A stretch of 64,000 bases of DNA. Source: a virus. Where the stretch lies: IMG/VR virus record IMGVR_UViG_3300046168_000082, positions 1 through 64,000 of that record. The stretch is one strand, 5' to 3'. Both the position numbers and the translations under genes were made by a program. The number at the start of each line of letters is the position of its first letter. Positions within the stretch are counted from its first letter, which is position 1. Of the stretch, positions 4,207 through 12,274 are shown piece by piece. Under the pieces are notes generated by a model. The model was not told where the DNA came from and made no database searches. It saw nothing but the letters and a program-made list of their open reading frames with translations.

Positions 4207-4282
<76 letters not shown>

Positions 4283-4905: not shown

Positions 4906-5571
4906 ATGATCCCTAGTCGAAAAACCCATTGTCAAAAAACCACTAAAACACCAGAAGAGACGGTGGATTTTTCTAGTCTTGAATCGTCAAGCTTAAAAGA
5001 AAACTCTGTTAAAAAAGATATTTGTTATATAAAATTAACTAAATGTGGGTCTACTTCAATCAATCGTTGGTTGCAAACAATAGGTAAAAGTTTTTATTTC
5101 ATTCGTCATAGACCAAGTAGACACTTATCAAATATAGAAGTTCTTGAAAAATCTGATTTCATCTTTTCTGTTGCTCGAAACCCTTATTCAAGAGCCGTAT
5201 CTTCATGGGCTTTCTTAGAGGGTGGAAGAAGAGGTAAAGAAGATAGACCTCGTTTATCGTTTAAAGAATTTATGGAAAATGATATATATATCACTCATTT
5301 TCGAAATGTTCATACCAAAAGTCAATATGAACTTCTAAAACCCTTTTTGCATTTTAATAATTTTCATTTAGGAAAATTAGAAGAAATTGACATTACTCTT
5401 TCTTTAATTTGCGAAAAATTTAACCTAAATAAAAGTGATTTTAGTTTTCCACAAATAAGATCAAGCAAGCATGATGATTATAAAAGTTATTATAATGATG
5501 AAATTCAAGAGTTAGTTTATAATAAATTTAAAAAAGATTTTCTTTTTTTTGGTTACTCTGAAAATCTTTAA
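4906..5571 (+). CDS. sulfotransferase family protein (PAPS-dependent, Sulfotransfer_2-like)
   Basis: 221 aa. ICYIKLTKCGSTSINRWL near residue 45 matches the 5'-phosphosulfate-binding loop (K-x-x-x-S/T-S), and FSVARNPYSRAVSSW near residue 90 matches the 3'-phosphate-binding strand/helix (R-x-P-x-x-R-x-x-S). Homologues transfer sulfate from PAPS to carbohydrates, usually in the Golgi or on bacterial surface glycans. In a phage it could modify host surface polysaccharide or a virion glycan. No signal peptide. Its 3' end overlaps the convergent DUF2452 gene by 44 nt. Confidence 0.8.
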   Translation: MIPSRKTHCQKTTKTPEETVDFSSLESSSLKENSVKKDICYIKLTKCGSTSINRWLQTIGKSFYFIRHRPSRHLSNIEVLEKSDFIFSVARNPYSRAVSSWAFLEGGRRGKEDRPRLSFKEFMENDIYITHFRNVHTKSQYELLKPFLHFNNFHLGKLEEIDITLSLICEKFNLNKSDFSFPQIRSSKHDDYKSYYNDEIQELVYNKFKKDFLFFGYSENL

Positions 5572-5953
5572 CTAGCTCCCAGCGATTATCGTAATTTAAT
5601 CGAAAAGAACCTTTGCACTTTTCTCCCCAAGAACACTCATTTGGAGCAAATAAACTCATAAAATATTTCCCATTATCTTTTTTATATAAATGATATATTT
5701 GCCCAATAACAGGTTTCATTCTCATTTCTGCATTAAATATTATTTCGTTCCATTTAACATCTTCAGCTAATTGCTCAAGTTCTTTTTTTAATTTATTAAA
5801 TCTTTCTTCGTAGTGTTTGTTTGCAGAATGTACCGCACCAACTTTCCATCCACCAAGACTATGATCGGGTTTAATTACGGGAGCAGATAAGTTGCTTCCA
5901 TAAGGTAAAGCATAAGCATTTGGCACATAACTATCGGGTAAATCTTTATCCAT
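5528..5953 (-). CDS. DUF2452 family protein
   Basis: 141 aa. NAYALPYGSNLSAPVIKPD at the N-terminus and IFNAEMRMKPVIGQIYHLY, then a FMSLFAPNECSW segment, match the DUF2452 family found in some phages, bacteria and eukaryotes; role unknown. Last gene of the minus-strand operon, starting within the end of the previous gene. It is convergent with and overlaps the sulfotransferase end. Confidence 0.75.
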   Translation of the reverse strand: MDKDLPDSYVPNAYALPYGSNLSAPVIKPDHSLGGWKVGAVHSANKHYEERFNKLKKELEQLAEDVKWNEIIFNAEMRMKPVIGQIYHLYKKDNGKYFMSLFAPNECSWGEKCKGSFRLNYDNRWELVKDFQSNQKKENLF

Positions 5954-6143
5954 TTTTTTCTAATTTAGTTAATATTTTTTTTAAAACATCAATTCTCGCC
6001 TCTTGTTCAGAAATTGCTCTACCCCACTTGCTTAAAGGTAACATCGGCATATATGATTCCTTGGAATTGTATTCGCAAATTTTTTCATTCTCTAAAAAAG
6101 AAATTTCTTCTTTTATTAAATTTATAAAATCTTTTTTGCTCAT
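5946..6143 (-). CDS. hypothetical helical protein (65 aa)
   Basis: The start ATG (6143) overlaps the TAA of the QueF-like gene (TAATG). Two helices separated by a Pro-rich linker (SYMPMLPLSKWG). It has no family match I recognise, but its place inside the tight operon supports expression. Confidence 0.5.
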   Translation of the reverse strand: MSKKDFINLIKEEISFLENEKICEYNSKESYMPMLPLSKWGRAISEQEARIDVLKKILTKLEKNG

Positions 6144-6568
6144 TACATAATAACATTCCACTCTTCTTCTTTGTCAACCCAATCTTTAAATTTTTCAAAT
6201 CCACCTCTTGCAGACCAATCTGAATCAATGGTTAATTTTGAAGATATTCCACCTCTTGGATTAAAAACCATAACCAATCTTAATCGTTCGGGTTCATAAA
6301 CTTCTATTAGATGTTCGTAAAATATATTAATTAATCTTTCGTAAGAAACAACTATATCTCTTAAATGAAAGACATATTGCTTGAGGCTTTTTAGCTCTAT
6401 AATTTTATCTTTTGGATAAAAACTGAGGTAAGCATTTGCAAAATCGGGTTGCTCTTTAACTCCAAGAAAAGTAAATTCGGGAACTTTTACTTTTATTTCG
6501 TATGCACCTTTGCTTGGATTAGGCAGAGATTTTAATATTTCTTTATTTATTTGATCGTATTTTTTCAT
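6143..6568 (-). CDS. queF: QueF-like T-fold protein lacking catalytic Cys
   Basis: 141 aa. Family-specific stretches are clear: PEFTFLGVKEQPDFANAYLS, IELKSLKQYVFHLRD and VMVFNPRGGIS match QueF (NADPH-dependent preQ0 nitrile reductase), which has PEFTSLCP-QPDF, ESKSLK and KFTPRGGIS. Here the thioimide-forming Cys of FTSLC is Gly, and the His of the conserved F-H-E is Tyr (SYER), while the general-acid Asp (QPDF) and the Glu remain. So nitrile reduction by the known mechanism is unlikely. It may bind a 7-deazaguanine or pterin-like ligand instead. Start ATG 6568 is preferred over an in-frame TTG at 6577. Confidence 0.82.
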   Translation of the reverse strand: MKKYDQINKEILKSLPNPSKGAYEIKVKVPEFTFLGVKEQPDFANAYLSFYPKDKIIELKSLKQYVFHLRDIVVSYERLINIFYEHLIEVYEPERLRLVMVFNPRGGISSKLTIDSDWSARGGFEKFKDWVDKEEEWNVIM

Positions 6569-6570
6569 AT

Positions 6571-6762
6571 TTACCAATTTTTAATAATATTTCCTATAAT
6601 AAATAAACAAGTCGTCATATTTAAAACGACTATAATTGTTCTTAGGATTAAACTAAATCTAGCTTCCTTCAATGAAAGAATAGGTATGTCGGGCTGATCT
6701 TCATCCGTTTTACCGACTCGATGATCTAATGTTCTAGCCCAAATTAACCAAAGTTTTTTCAT
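6571..6762 (-). CDS. small membrane protein (63 aa)
   Basis: Start ATG at 6762 overlaps the end of the GNAT-like gene. Basic, polar N-terminus (MKKLWLIWARTLDHRVGK) and one C-terminal hydrophobic helix (TIIVVLNMTTCLFIIGNII), so a single-pass membrane protein is likely. Function unknown; an operon member between the GNAT-like and QueF-like genes. Confidence 0.5.
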   Translation of the reverse strand: MKKLWLIWARTLDHRVGKTDEDQPDIPILSLKEARFSLILRTIIVVLNMTTCLFIIGNIIKNW

Positions 6763-7529
6763 TTAAAAAAAAGATTATCATCATGTTTTTTAATACTATC
6801 TAAATCGCTTACTTTTTCAACATTAGAATCTCGTTCGCATAAAAATTTATAACGCTCAATATCGTCTGACCACTCTTCTCCTGTCCAAAATTCAAACCCT
6901 GCGTAATCTGCTTTGTATATACATGATTTTTCGTAGCCAAAGCCGAGATACATATAATCTTTACCGCTTTCGATACAATAATCAATTTCTGCAAGATTAG
7001 CATATTTACCAAGGTATAGTTTTGGCTCTTCATAATCCCATGCGAATTGAGTTGAAAAAACGCTATTTGAACCAACATCCCGCATAAATGTAAATGCGAT
7101 TGGTTTTTCATTTAAATAATAAATTAAAAAATATTTACGATGGGATTCTGATAAAATTAAAGGAGCTAAATCCCATTTTTTAAACCCTCTATATTCAAAA
7201 TATTTATCAAAAATTTCGTTTAATATATTTATATTAATTTCTTTTGCATTTAAACACTTTGTGGTAATGTTTTTGCATTTCTTGCGAGCTTTTCTAGTGC
7301 TTCTAGTGTCGGAAAATTTTTTAAGATTAATTCTTGTTTGTCTCGCTTGATACCAATGTGATTTTAATATGTTTCCGAGAGAATCTTTTTTTATTAAATA
7401 ATCGTCGGGTAACCAACCCTCTTTTAAAGCAATATCTTCCTCAACCAAGGGAACTTCTGCCATACAATCAAAAAACATATAATCATACTCTGTAATTGCT
7501 CCCGAATAGTGTTTAAAATATATTCTCAT
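6759..7529 (-). CDS. GNAT-fold protein similar to leucyl/arginyl-tRNA-protein transferase
   Basis: 256 aa. The C-terminal half carries the ATE/Bpt signature order: a strand NEKPIAFTFMRD, then WDYEEPKLYLGKYANLAEID (family: D-P-x-x-x-x-SLG-x-x-x-L-x-x-I-x), then YMYLGFGYEKSCIYKADYAG (family: YLGYYI-x-x-C-x-K-M-x-YK). These enzymes move an amino acid from aminoacyl-tRNA to a protein N-terminus; the phage protein could act on another acceptor. The N-terminal Cys-rich part of bona fide ATE is not evident. It overlaps the SpeD-like gene (ATGA), so the two are co-translated. Confidence 0.72.
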   Translation of the reverse strand: MRIYFKHYSGAITEYDYMFFDCMAEVPLVEEDIALKEGWLPDDYLIKKDSLGNILKSHWYQARQTRINLKKFSDTRSTRKARKKCKNITTKCLNAKEININILNEIFDKYFEYRGFKKWDLAPLILSESHRKYFLIYYLNEKPIAFTFMRDVGSNSVFSTQFAWDYEEPKLYLGKYANLAEIDYCIESGKDYMYLGFGYEKSCIYKADYAGFEFWTGEEWSDDIERYKFLCERDSNVEKVSDLDSIKKHDDNLFFK

Positions 7530-7915
7530 GCCATACCTTCGTCAAACATTCTCCACCCTCTTGTGTTTTCAGTAGCTCGATCAAGAAATTTACAACCTAA
7601 AGATAAAGGATTGAACTTATTTAATTCTTTTGTTATAATTGTCTGATCAAAATCTTTACAACTATAAACATCTAATTGGATAAAATTTGGATTAGTTTTT
7701 TCCCAAGAATGTAAGGCTATGTGACTTGTAGTGATTAAACAAAATGCACTAATTCCTTCATTATATTTTTCGTCGCAACGAACTGCTTTTGCAGGAGACA
7801 GAAGCTCCATGTTTATTAAATCTACAATATTATGAATCCAATTTTCTGTGAATTTAATTTCCGTAAAAGGAGTTTTTTCAAAAGTTGCATTAACTAAAAG
7901 TTGTTTGTGTTCCAC
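7526..7915 (-). CDS. speD: S-adenosylmethionine decarboxylase (SpeD/AdoMetDC) homologue
   Basis: 129 aa, the size of class 1b bacterial AdoMetDC proenzymes (about 120-130). LITTSHIALHSW holds the Ser that becomes the pyruvoyl group after self-cleavage (family ESH-x-x-x-H-T/S-W) and the catalytic His. DVYSCKDF holds the catalytic Cys. The residue before the Ser is Thr instead of the usual Glu. SpeD relatives in phages include forms shown to have become ornithine or arginine decarboxylases, so the substrate is open. The frame starts with GTG at 7915. Confidence 0.85.
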   Translation of the reverse strand: MEHKQLLVNATFEKTPFTEIKFTENWIHNIVDLINMELLSPAKAVRCDEKYNEGISAFCLITTSHIALHSWEKTNPNFIQLDVYSCKDFDQTIITKELNKFNPLSLGCKFLDRATENTRGWRMFDEGMA

Positions 7916-11278: not shown

Positions 11279-12274
11279 ATGACACAAATACTAGGTTTAA
11301 CTTGCATCAGTGAAGAGTTGAAGGATAGAGACAAGAAGAAATATTCTTTTCGTACAATGACTCGTAAAAGATTTAATGACTTGTGTAACCAAGAAAGTAG
11401 AGATGAAGCAGTCAATCAATTATCTGAAAGAGTTTTGCACAATGTTATTGTTACTCAATATATTGTCAATCATTGTCATTCCTCAAATATTAGGCATTAT
11501 CGTCTTAGTTCTGCTCTTTTTCCTCTCCTTACCGATAAAACTTTGGACATCTCTTTTGAAGATTTGCCTCACAAAGCTAGAATCGAAGGAGAATTAGAAC
11601 TTATTGGATTAATCGCTAAAAAGTTCGACATCTCAATAGGTTCGCATCCCGATCAATTCAATGTTCTTGCGTCTACTGACAGAGAAAAAGTTGATCGCAC
11701 AATAAATGAACTAAATTTTCAAGCTAGTGTTCTTGATATGATCGGGTTGCCTCAAGATCATACTACTCCAATGAATATTCACATAAACTATACTCCAAAA
11801 ACGGATGAAAGTTTAGAAATAGTTGCAACTAGATTTTTTCGCAATCTTTCTATGTGCGACAAGGGTGTTTACAAACGATTAACTATTGAGAATGAAGATA
11901 AAGGTTTTTTCAATGTAGATAATTGTATTGAATTTAGCAATTACTTGTTTGAAACATTCGGGGCAATGATCCCTGTTTGTTTTGATAATCTACATCATAT
12001 GTGTAATCCATCAGAAGAATCTTCCGTAGAATGGCAAGCCGAGCGTTGTGCTTACACATGGGTTAACAATGGAAAAGGTGATAACAATTTTATTTCCCCT
12101 GTGTTTCATTGGTCAGAAGGTACTCCCGAAAAACCTCGATCTCACGCAGATTATTTTGCTCTAGGTCGATTTCCACCAAATATTGCCATTGAACCCGATA
12201 AACCTGTTAAGTGGGAATGTGAAGTAAAACAAAAAGATAAAGCTATCAAATTACTTCAAGAGCAAATGTCATGA
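11279..12274 (+). CDS. uvsE: UV damage endonuclease UvsE/UVDE
   Basis: 331 aa, TIM-barrel metal-dependent nuclease that nicks 5' of UV photoproducts and starts alternative excision repair. Family motifs appear in order: YRLSSALFPL, SIGSHPDQFNVLAS (metal His), ENEDKGF (metal Glu), FDNLHHMCNP, FHWSEG, RSHADYF and a final ECEVKQKDKA. Length is typical (about 300-330). It begins at a leaderless promoter and ends in an ATGA overlap with the next gene. It probably protects phage or host DNA in sunlit water. Confidence 0.93.
   Translation: MTQILGLTCISEELKDRDKKKYSFRTMTRKRFNDLCNQESRDEAVNQLSERVLHNVIVTQYIVNHCHSSNIRHYRLSSALFPLLTDKTLDISFEDLPHKARIEGELELIGLIAKKFDISIGSHPDQFNVLASTDREKVDRTINELNFQASVLDMIGLPQDHTTPMNIHINYTPKTDESLEIVATRFFRNLSMCDKGVYKRLTIENEDKGFFNVDNCIEFSNYLFETFGAMIPVCFDNLHHMCNPSEESSVEWQAERCAYTWVNNGKGDNNFISPVFHWSEGTPEKPRSHADYFALGRFPPNIAIEPDKPVKWECEVKQKDKAIKLLQEQMS

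Follow-up and report, generated by a model that had tools for sequence, protein, structure and literature searches.

The first 64,000 nucleotides of the IMG/VR virus record IMGVR_UViG_3300046168_000082, which has 83,536 bases in all (this stretch is referred to here as the window), carry overlapping genes for a SpeD-family decarboxylase (SpeD1) and an arginyltransferase-like (ATE-like) GNAT-fold protein, as well as a gene for a DUF1415-like protein that accompanies the ATE-like gene in related phages. Together, SpeD1, ATE, and the DUF1415-like gene make up a solid three-gene unit, which replaces the unit of SpeD, ATE, and a QueF-like gene given by the original prediction for this DNA; the chemistry of the unit is inferred. 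The reading favored here, with a probability of about 0.36, is that the three proteins serve one pathway of decarboxylation, tRNA-dependent aminoacylation, and haem-dependent oxidation. The phage is uncultured and probably of marine or freshwater origin, as judged from its affinities to pelagiphages and cyanophages; all relatives compared are metagenomic contigs.

Linkage of SpeD1, ATE, and the DUF1415-like Gene

SpeD1 is located directly upstream of ATE, mostly with an overlap of a few nucleotides, in 16/16 loci with ATE at 63-84% identity, so the predicted link between a decarboxylase and an aminoacyl-transferase is borne out in close relatives. SpeD1 is present in 16 of the 20 ATE loci; L049 and L050 carry a different SpeD. 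A DUF1415-like gene is found within 1.7 kb of ATE in all 20 loci (14 after clustering at 90% identity) and directly abuts or overlaps ATE in 17; neighbors other than these two genes reach at most 12 of the 20. In the window, the DUF1415-like gene is 1.9 kb from ATE, on the opposite strand. L012 retains a 16-residue remnant, MIEDYINYVSIKKSRQ, which is overlapped by the stop codon of ATE and resembles the N-terminus of the DUF1415-like protein (MIEDYIEYVSLKRKELGG in L014); the intact DUF1415-like gene sits past the genes for a membrane peptide, QueF, and DUF2452.

A separate group of short ATE proteins, ~145 residues in length and comprising the GNAT half only, has the same partner. The DUF1415-like gene is present in 76/76 short-ATE loci with flanking sequence, immediately upstream in 61 and, in the rest, either downstream or on the other strand; these counts include related contigs, and clustering reduces the 76 loci to 47 groups (90% identity) or 29 (70%). 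The pairing of ATE with the DUF1415-like gene is near-obligate, and its constancy across different gene orders argues for a shared function.

The Decarboxylase SpeD1

SpeD1 keeps the self-processing serine and the catalytic histidine and cysteine, with the motifs TTSH, H..W, and YSC aligned to the S63, H68, and C83 region of T. maritima S-adenosylmethionine decarboxylase (AdoMetDC). Against the AdoMetDC model TIGR03330 it scores 33.5 bits, below the cut-off of 75.65. A proline conserved in true AdoMetDC separates these enzymes from arginine decarboxylases (PMC10407285); SpeD1 has HSWEK where AdoMetDC has HTWPE and, by our own reading of which proline is meant, lacks it. The closest phage relatives of SpeD1 are pelagiphage SpeDs (32-41% identity). 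One of these, from HTVC201P, was shown by assay to act as a decarboxylase on L-arginine, and it failed to restore spermidine in a speD mutant (PMC9992855). In a phylogenetic tree, SpeD1 and the pelagiphage enzymes are split from the AdoMetDCs of S-PM2 and phiYS40 (support 97/92); SpeD1 forms its own clade (99/100), and its join to the pelagiphage enzymes is weaker (83/77).

Judged by its sequence, SpeD1 is not a standard AdoMetDC. Since its place in the tree is with a validated arginine decarboxylase instead, the expectation that this decarboxylase could yield an amine is likely to hold. Five relatives encode a second SpeD (SpeD2) that is AdoMetDC-like by score, so SpeD1 would not be needed for decarboxylated AdoMet in these phages and probably has another job. 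This AdoMetDC-like paralog (117 bits) is found at L004:9458-9862 and L007:4236-4640, in phages that have SpeD1 too. The residue at -2 of the catalytic serine is threonine in all SpeD1 and glutamate in pelagiphage and most marine bacterial homologs. ETSH-motif SpeD homologs are common in the marine bacteria SAR11, Thioglobus, HIMB59, and PS1-clade (L199-L242), and among them two lineages, L212 and L227, share the phage-type TTSH motif. A search of viral contigs with the SpeD query alone returned no relatives.

The ATE-like Transferase

The ATE-like protein matches the C-terminal GNAT domain PF04377 with 38.9 bits (cut-off 25) and falls short of the arginyltransferase equivalog, at 45 bits against a cut-off of 170. 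No conserved N-terminal cysteine cluster (CxxC/CC) is found in an alignment of 22 ATE sequences. An AlphaFold model based on 22 viral sequences has a mean predicted local distance difference test score (pLDDT) of 87, and its best structural match is human ATE1 (8tzv, E=9e-10, TMq 0.62), followed by aminoacyl-phosphatidylglycerol synthase, FemX, and leucyl/phenylalanyl (L/F) transferase, all of which use charged tRNA. From its sequence profile and predicted fold, the ATE-like protein is taken to be a full-length homolog of arginyl/leucyl transferases that lacks the N-terminal cysteine cluster.

Relatives were not found by tblastn among 50,697 phage records, no PHROG model matches the protein, and the ATE alignment found no relative in bacterial genomes. 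In IMG/VR, the full-length alignment confirmed 345 relatives and the short-form alignment 170; the two sets may overlap.

The DUF1415-like Protein

The cysteine of a CP.A motif and an Asp-His (DH) pair are invariant in 81 DUF1415-like sequences. The protein of L280 reaches 24.6 against DUF6875 (cut-off 24.5) and, by HMMER, also matches DUF1415 at 1e-4 and YqcI/YcgG at 0.046. When profile hidden Markov models (HMMs) are compared with each other, the viral family matches bacterial DUF1415 and DUF6875 with 95% probability each (P=3e-8) and with the CP.A cysteine in register; the viral protein is accordingly assigned to the DUF1415/DUF6875 superfamily.

The HMM-HMM match to YqcI/YcgG is remote (probability 36%, P=4e-4), with the conserved cysteine in register; it scores 33.0, and the best of 88 unrelated decoy profiles scores 19.9. 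The predicted structure (pLDDT 84) consists of a four-stranded sheet with three main flanking helices. AglA, the prototype of YqcI/YcgG, also has a four-stranded sheet flanked by helices, and its haem is held by a conserved cysteine (PMC12866846). Among viral models, the DUF1415-like model matched its own family only. A weak, suggestive resemblance to the thiolate-haem guanidine hydroxylases of the YqcI/YcgG type can be seen in these comparisons.

Arginine-related Neighbors of Short-ATE Loci

A homolog of arginine amidinotransferases, resembling AGAT, SxtG, and HsvA by sequence, is encoded near 36 of 79 short-ATE/DUF1415-like loci. A DUF6614 gene occurs in 53/79 short-ATE loci (L243-L321; e.g., L257:436-1839, L177:7771-8103), and radical SAM genes are found in some.

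Proposed Pathway and Competing Explanations

A three-step pathway is proposed because four features alike suggest arginine or guanidino chemistry: SpeD1, ATE, the amidinotransferase, and the likeness to YqcI/YcgG. It builds on the observed gene linkage, the membership of SpeD1 and ATE in their families, the predicted ATE fold, and the invariant cysteine; we infer every reaction, the haem, the order of the steps, and the identity of the amino acid and the acceptor. SpeD1, with its self-made pyruvoyl group, would first decarboxylate a basic amino acid (arginine, ornithine, or a close analog) to an amine. The ATE-like protein would then take an amino acid from a charged tRNA, most likely arginine by family resemblance, and join it in amide linkage to an amine acceptor, the SpeD1 product; in phages lacking SpeD1, the acceptor may be another small amine or a protein. 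Finally, the DUF1415-like protein would bind haem through its invariant N-terminal cysteine and oxidize the conjugate, as YqcI/YcgG enzymes act on amide-linked arginine. ATE and the DUF1415-like protein would be the core of the pathway and SpeD1 a clade-specific supplier of substrate, with QueF outside it. With respect to the original prediction, the joining of an amino acid to an amine is a fair reading of the SpeD1-ATE link; the decoration of a base is not supported.

Several observations weigh against this pathway. No acceptor, exporter, or resistance gene was identified for it. The YqcI/YcgG match is remote, and the bacterial DUF1415 and DUF6875 alignments themselves give 1-2% (no match) against YqcI/YcgG, for which reason the link is suggestive only; the DUF1415-like model likewise found no match among solved structures with Foldseek. 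Because SpeD1 has threonine instead of glutamate at -2, its substrate may not be that of the pelagiphage arginine decarboxylase. The ATE/DUF1415-like pair is also not universal: cyanophages carry the DUF1415-like gene without a detectable ATE, and a third ATE group (L077-L139; 63 loci, ATE at 33-38% identity) has neither a DUF1415-like gene nor SpeD. In this group ATE has another upstream overlapping partner, phrog_3704, in 59/63 loci (e.g., L082:5366-6765); a reading of this partner as a ferredoxin, from its PHROG name, is not supported by Pfam. The gene for a small basic peptide ending in YRGQGK immediately precedes the DUF1415-like gene in cyanophages and, in some third-group phages, immediately follows ATE (Table 1); the peptide was considered as a shared substrate and rejected, being absent from loci of the window's type.

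The main rival of the three-step pathway, possible and yet doubtful, is protein modification, in which the ATE-like protein would attach an amino acid to the N-termini of host or virion proteins as an N-degron-like mark or a cap. The DUF1415-like protein would choose the target or modify it further, and SpeD1 would be a separate polyamine gene that happens to lie in the same operon in one clade. N-terminal modification of proteins is the established activity of the ATE, Bpt, and L/F transferases. The genomic setting is consistent with such a role in that several short-ATE pairs adjoin baseplate-like genes, portal, terminase, and small structural genes surround ATE in the third group, and most phages with the ATE/DUF1415-like pair have no SpeD1. 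Protein modification does not account well for the 16/16 adjacency of SpeD1 and ATE, which is mostly an overlap and exceeds chance sharing, or for the short ATE that retains only the GNAT half, and no ClpS-like or target gene was identified.

It is unlikely that the genes are simply independent, with SpeD1 boosting polyamines, ATE and the DUF1415-like protein unrelated to it, and the grouping due to a mobile accessory cassette. SpeD is a common single auxiliary gene in marine phages (PMC9992855, and phage matches in this analysis), the region is modular, with the genes for the membrane peptide (TM63), DUF2452, and QueF coming and going between loci, and the truncated DUF1415-like start in L012 fits such turnover; against this stand the constancy of SpeD1 beside ATE, which the other neighbors do not approach, and the second SpeD that some phages keep elsewhere for ordinary polyamine use.

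QueF and the Deazaguanine Question

The QueF-like protein of the window scores 88.9 bits against TIGR03139 (cut-off 86.9). It was correctly described as Cys-less: the catalytic cysteine (C55 of B. subtilis QueF) is glycine in the window and in all close homologs (L021-L038), with one adjacent residue deleted, and the conserved histidine before the active-site glutamate is tyrosine. Asp62, Glu97, and an NADPH-site-like motif are kept (QPDFA, Y-E, and ELKSLK). The co-occurrence of SpeD, ATE, and QueF that had been set as a test of the predicted pathway failed, as just 4 of the 14 other records with ATE contain QueF, often with DUF2452. QueF is also found in a dozen records with no ATE seen nearby, and in four of these that were searched whole there was no ATE match.

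Co-occurrence and the L012 remnant lead us to reject QueF as a member of the pathway. Since the QueF block of L012 sits just after the truncated DUF1415-like start, QueF looks like a passenger, apparently inserted in the operon. Other arrangements of the gene include a long QueF with the cysteine beside a Cys-less QueF, followed by DUF2452 (L027:4422-5895), a long QueF in the L028 phage, whose record also has QueC, and, in L033-L038 (QueF relatives at 63-65%), a Cys-less QueF before a SAM synthetase (metK)-like gene with no ATE in the locus.

The remaining explanation, a deazaguanine-based modification of DNA or nucleosides that bears an amino acid or polyamine, with QueF as the base-binding fold, is very improbable: QueF does share the overlapping run in the window and in L012, retains the Asp, Glu, and NADPH-site-like residues, and has long counterparts in the L027 and L028 phages, but it is rare among ATE records and has lost its catalytic residues, a tblastn search of the complete 83.5-kb record with proteins of Dp-1 and HVTV-1 gave no homologs of QueC, QueD, QueE, FolE, or DpdA, PF01702 and PF06508 likewise had no match in it, and QueC (PF06508) was found in 1/27 records. 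The same 27 records were negative for TGT (PF01702), a result of little weight because in phage Dp-1, too, this profile failed to detect the annotated transferase. The deazaguanine explanation keeps a small weight since hosts can supply deazaguanine-modification enzymes to phages (PMC6884629), and the base and enzyme could thus come from the host. The base part of the original prediction is not borne out.

Operon Layout and Other Features

On the minus strand, the genes for SpeD1, the ATE-like protein, a 63-residue membrane peptide, QueF, a small open reading frame (ORF), and DUF2452 run from 7915 to 5528 with gaps or overlaps of a few nucleotides (Table 1). The SpeD, ATE-like, membrane peptide, and QueF genes are as originally predicted, with SpeD, ATE, and QueF over Pfam cut-offs; the DUF2452 gene of the same run and the plus-strand DUF1415-like gene had been overlooked. 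The overlaps are 4 nucleotides for SpeD/ATE and 4 nucleotides for ATE/membrane peptide, and the ATG of QueF lies 2 nucleotides past the end of the membrane peptide gene, which the alternative TTG at 6577 would overlap. The close packing described earlier is thereby confirmed; the co-translation described with it is suggested by these overlaps.

Table 1. Features of the SpeD1-ATE region and of related loci. Positions are those of the window unless a locus is named.
Feature	Position	Strand	Evidence
SpeD1, putative pyruvoyl-dependent decarboxylase, SpeDA/SpeDC side of the SpeD family (TTSH..HSW..YSC)	7526-7915	-	PF02675 E=2e-10
ATE-like, predicted GNAT-fold aminoacyl-tRNA transferase, full length	6759-7529	-	PF04377 E=1.5e-9
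63-residue membrane peptide, neighbor in 10/20 ATE loci	6571-6762	-	phrog_1679 E=2e-7
QueF-like, catalytic Cys/His missing	6143-6577 (ATG start 6568)	-	PF14489 E=1e-17, TIGR03139 88.9 bits
Small ORF, no family match	5946-6161	-	ORF list, Pfam scan
DUF2452 protein, usual partner of Cys-less QueF (9/18 loci)	5528-5953	-	PF10504 E=5e-14
DUF1415-like protein, conserved partner of ATE, relocated in this genome	4338-4880	+	phrog_10325 E=1e-20
tRNA-Thr (TGT), just upstream of the DUF1415-like gene	4207-4282	+	tRNA scan
Basic peptide ending in YRGQGK	L054:3820-4002, L159:794-964, L106:6749-6889

A tRNA-Thr is near the module in L009, L013, and L017 as well; it was rejected as the amino-acid donor, being near the module only in the window and these three relatives. 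In L013 (7365-7609), tRNA-Thr, tRNA-Arg(TCT), and tRNA-Leu directly precede SpeD1-ATE, and in L011 (5631-6027) a tmRNA gene (ARAGORN; tag AKQKRIAC) is located ~1.6 kb before these genes. The window also contains, near the module, a UvdE-type UV endonuclease gene (11279-12274), which recurs in most relatives, and a sulfotransferase-like gene (PF03567; 4906-5571). Beyond the window, the record has one ORF of 3443 residues (L378:3094-13425; G000 67094-77425).

Comparison with Known Systems and Significance

By analogy, argolaphos biosynthesis (haem hydroxylase AlpD/AglA of the YqcI/YcgG type; GNAT aminoacyl-tRNA ligases AlpF/AlpO) is the closest working parallel to the phage module. Its cluster encodes a YqcI/YcgG enzyme alongside two GNAT aminoacyl-tRNA ligases (PMC8976061), and AglA acts on amide-linked arginine, not on free arginine (PMC12866846). 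Common to both systems is the combination of a GNAT-fold aminoacyl-tRNA ligase with a conserved-Cys, four-stranded-sheet protein, and arginine chemistry is suspected here. The argolaphos system differs in being a bacterial natural-product cluster with phosphonate genes and no known SpeD-type decarboxylase; AlpF scores as PF13480, not as ATE-like, and the phage DUF1415-like protein resembles AglA only remotely. The valanimycin pathway, which includes a decarboxylase step, has the same logic of decarboxylase, N-oxygenase, and GNAT aminoacyl-tRNA transferase but uses other enzyme families throughout (flavin-dependent hydroxylase, Fem-like transferase). In that pathway the amine is N-hydroxylated by VlmH and then aminoacylated from seryl-tRNA by the GNAT-fold VlmA (PMC7347517, PMC12945691).

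Each component of the phage region also has a better-known counterpart. The ATE1, Bpt, and L/F transferases share with the phage ATE their fold and conserved C-terminal GNAT region, and the full-length model matches ATE1; the phage protein is distinguished by scores far below equivalog cut-offs, the missing N-terminal cysteine cluster, and a constant viral partner gene. The pelagiphage SpeDA of HTVC201P is ~36% identical to SpeD1, with the same self-processing serine, catalytic histidine and cysteine, and no AdoMetDC proline. In contrast to SpeD1, which always adjoins ATE and has Thr for Glu at -2, the gene for pelagiphage SpeDA adjoins those for an exonuclease and ribonucleotide reductase. 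Phage 7-deazaguanine DNA modification (Dp-1, HVTV-1) also involves a QueF-family gene; in the record considered here, preQ0 synthesis genes were not found by tblastn and the QueF lacks its catalytic cysteine.

With hundreds of contigs that encode it, the arginyltransferase-like enzyme is abundant among uncultured phages of marine and fresh waters. A broader and tentative proposal is that uncultured aquatic phages encode a dedicated, so far undescribed tRNA-dependent system of biosynthesis or modification, in which an ATE-like transferase, paired near-obligately with a DUF1415/DUF6875-type haem-thiolate oxygenase and fed by lineage-specific arginine enzymes (SpeD1, amidinotransferase), would, in the course of infection, yield an oxidized aminoacyl-amine or aminoacyl-protein. 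Should the haem and tRNA predictions be true, phages would run tRNA-dependent biosynthesis during infection, for which no description was found in the literature. The association of ATE with the DUF1415-like gene points to an undescribed phage modification pathway, and through their near-obligate pairing the uncharacterized bacterial DUF1415 family gains a functional partner and a chemistry that can be tested.

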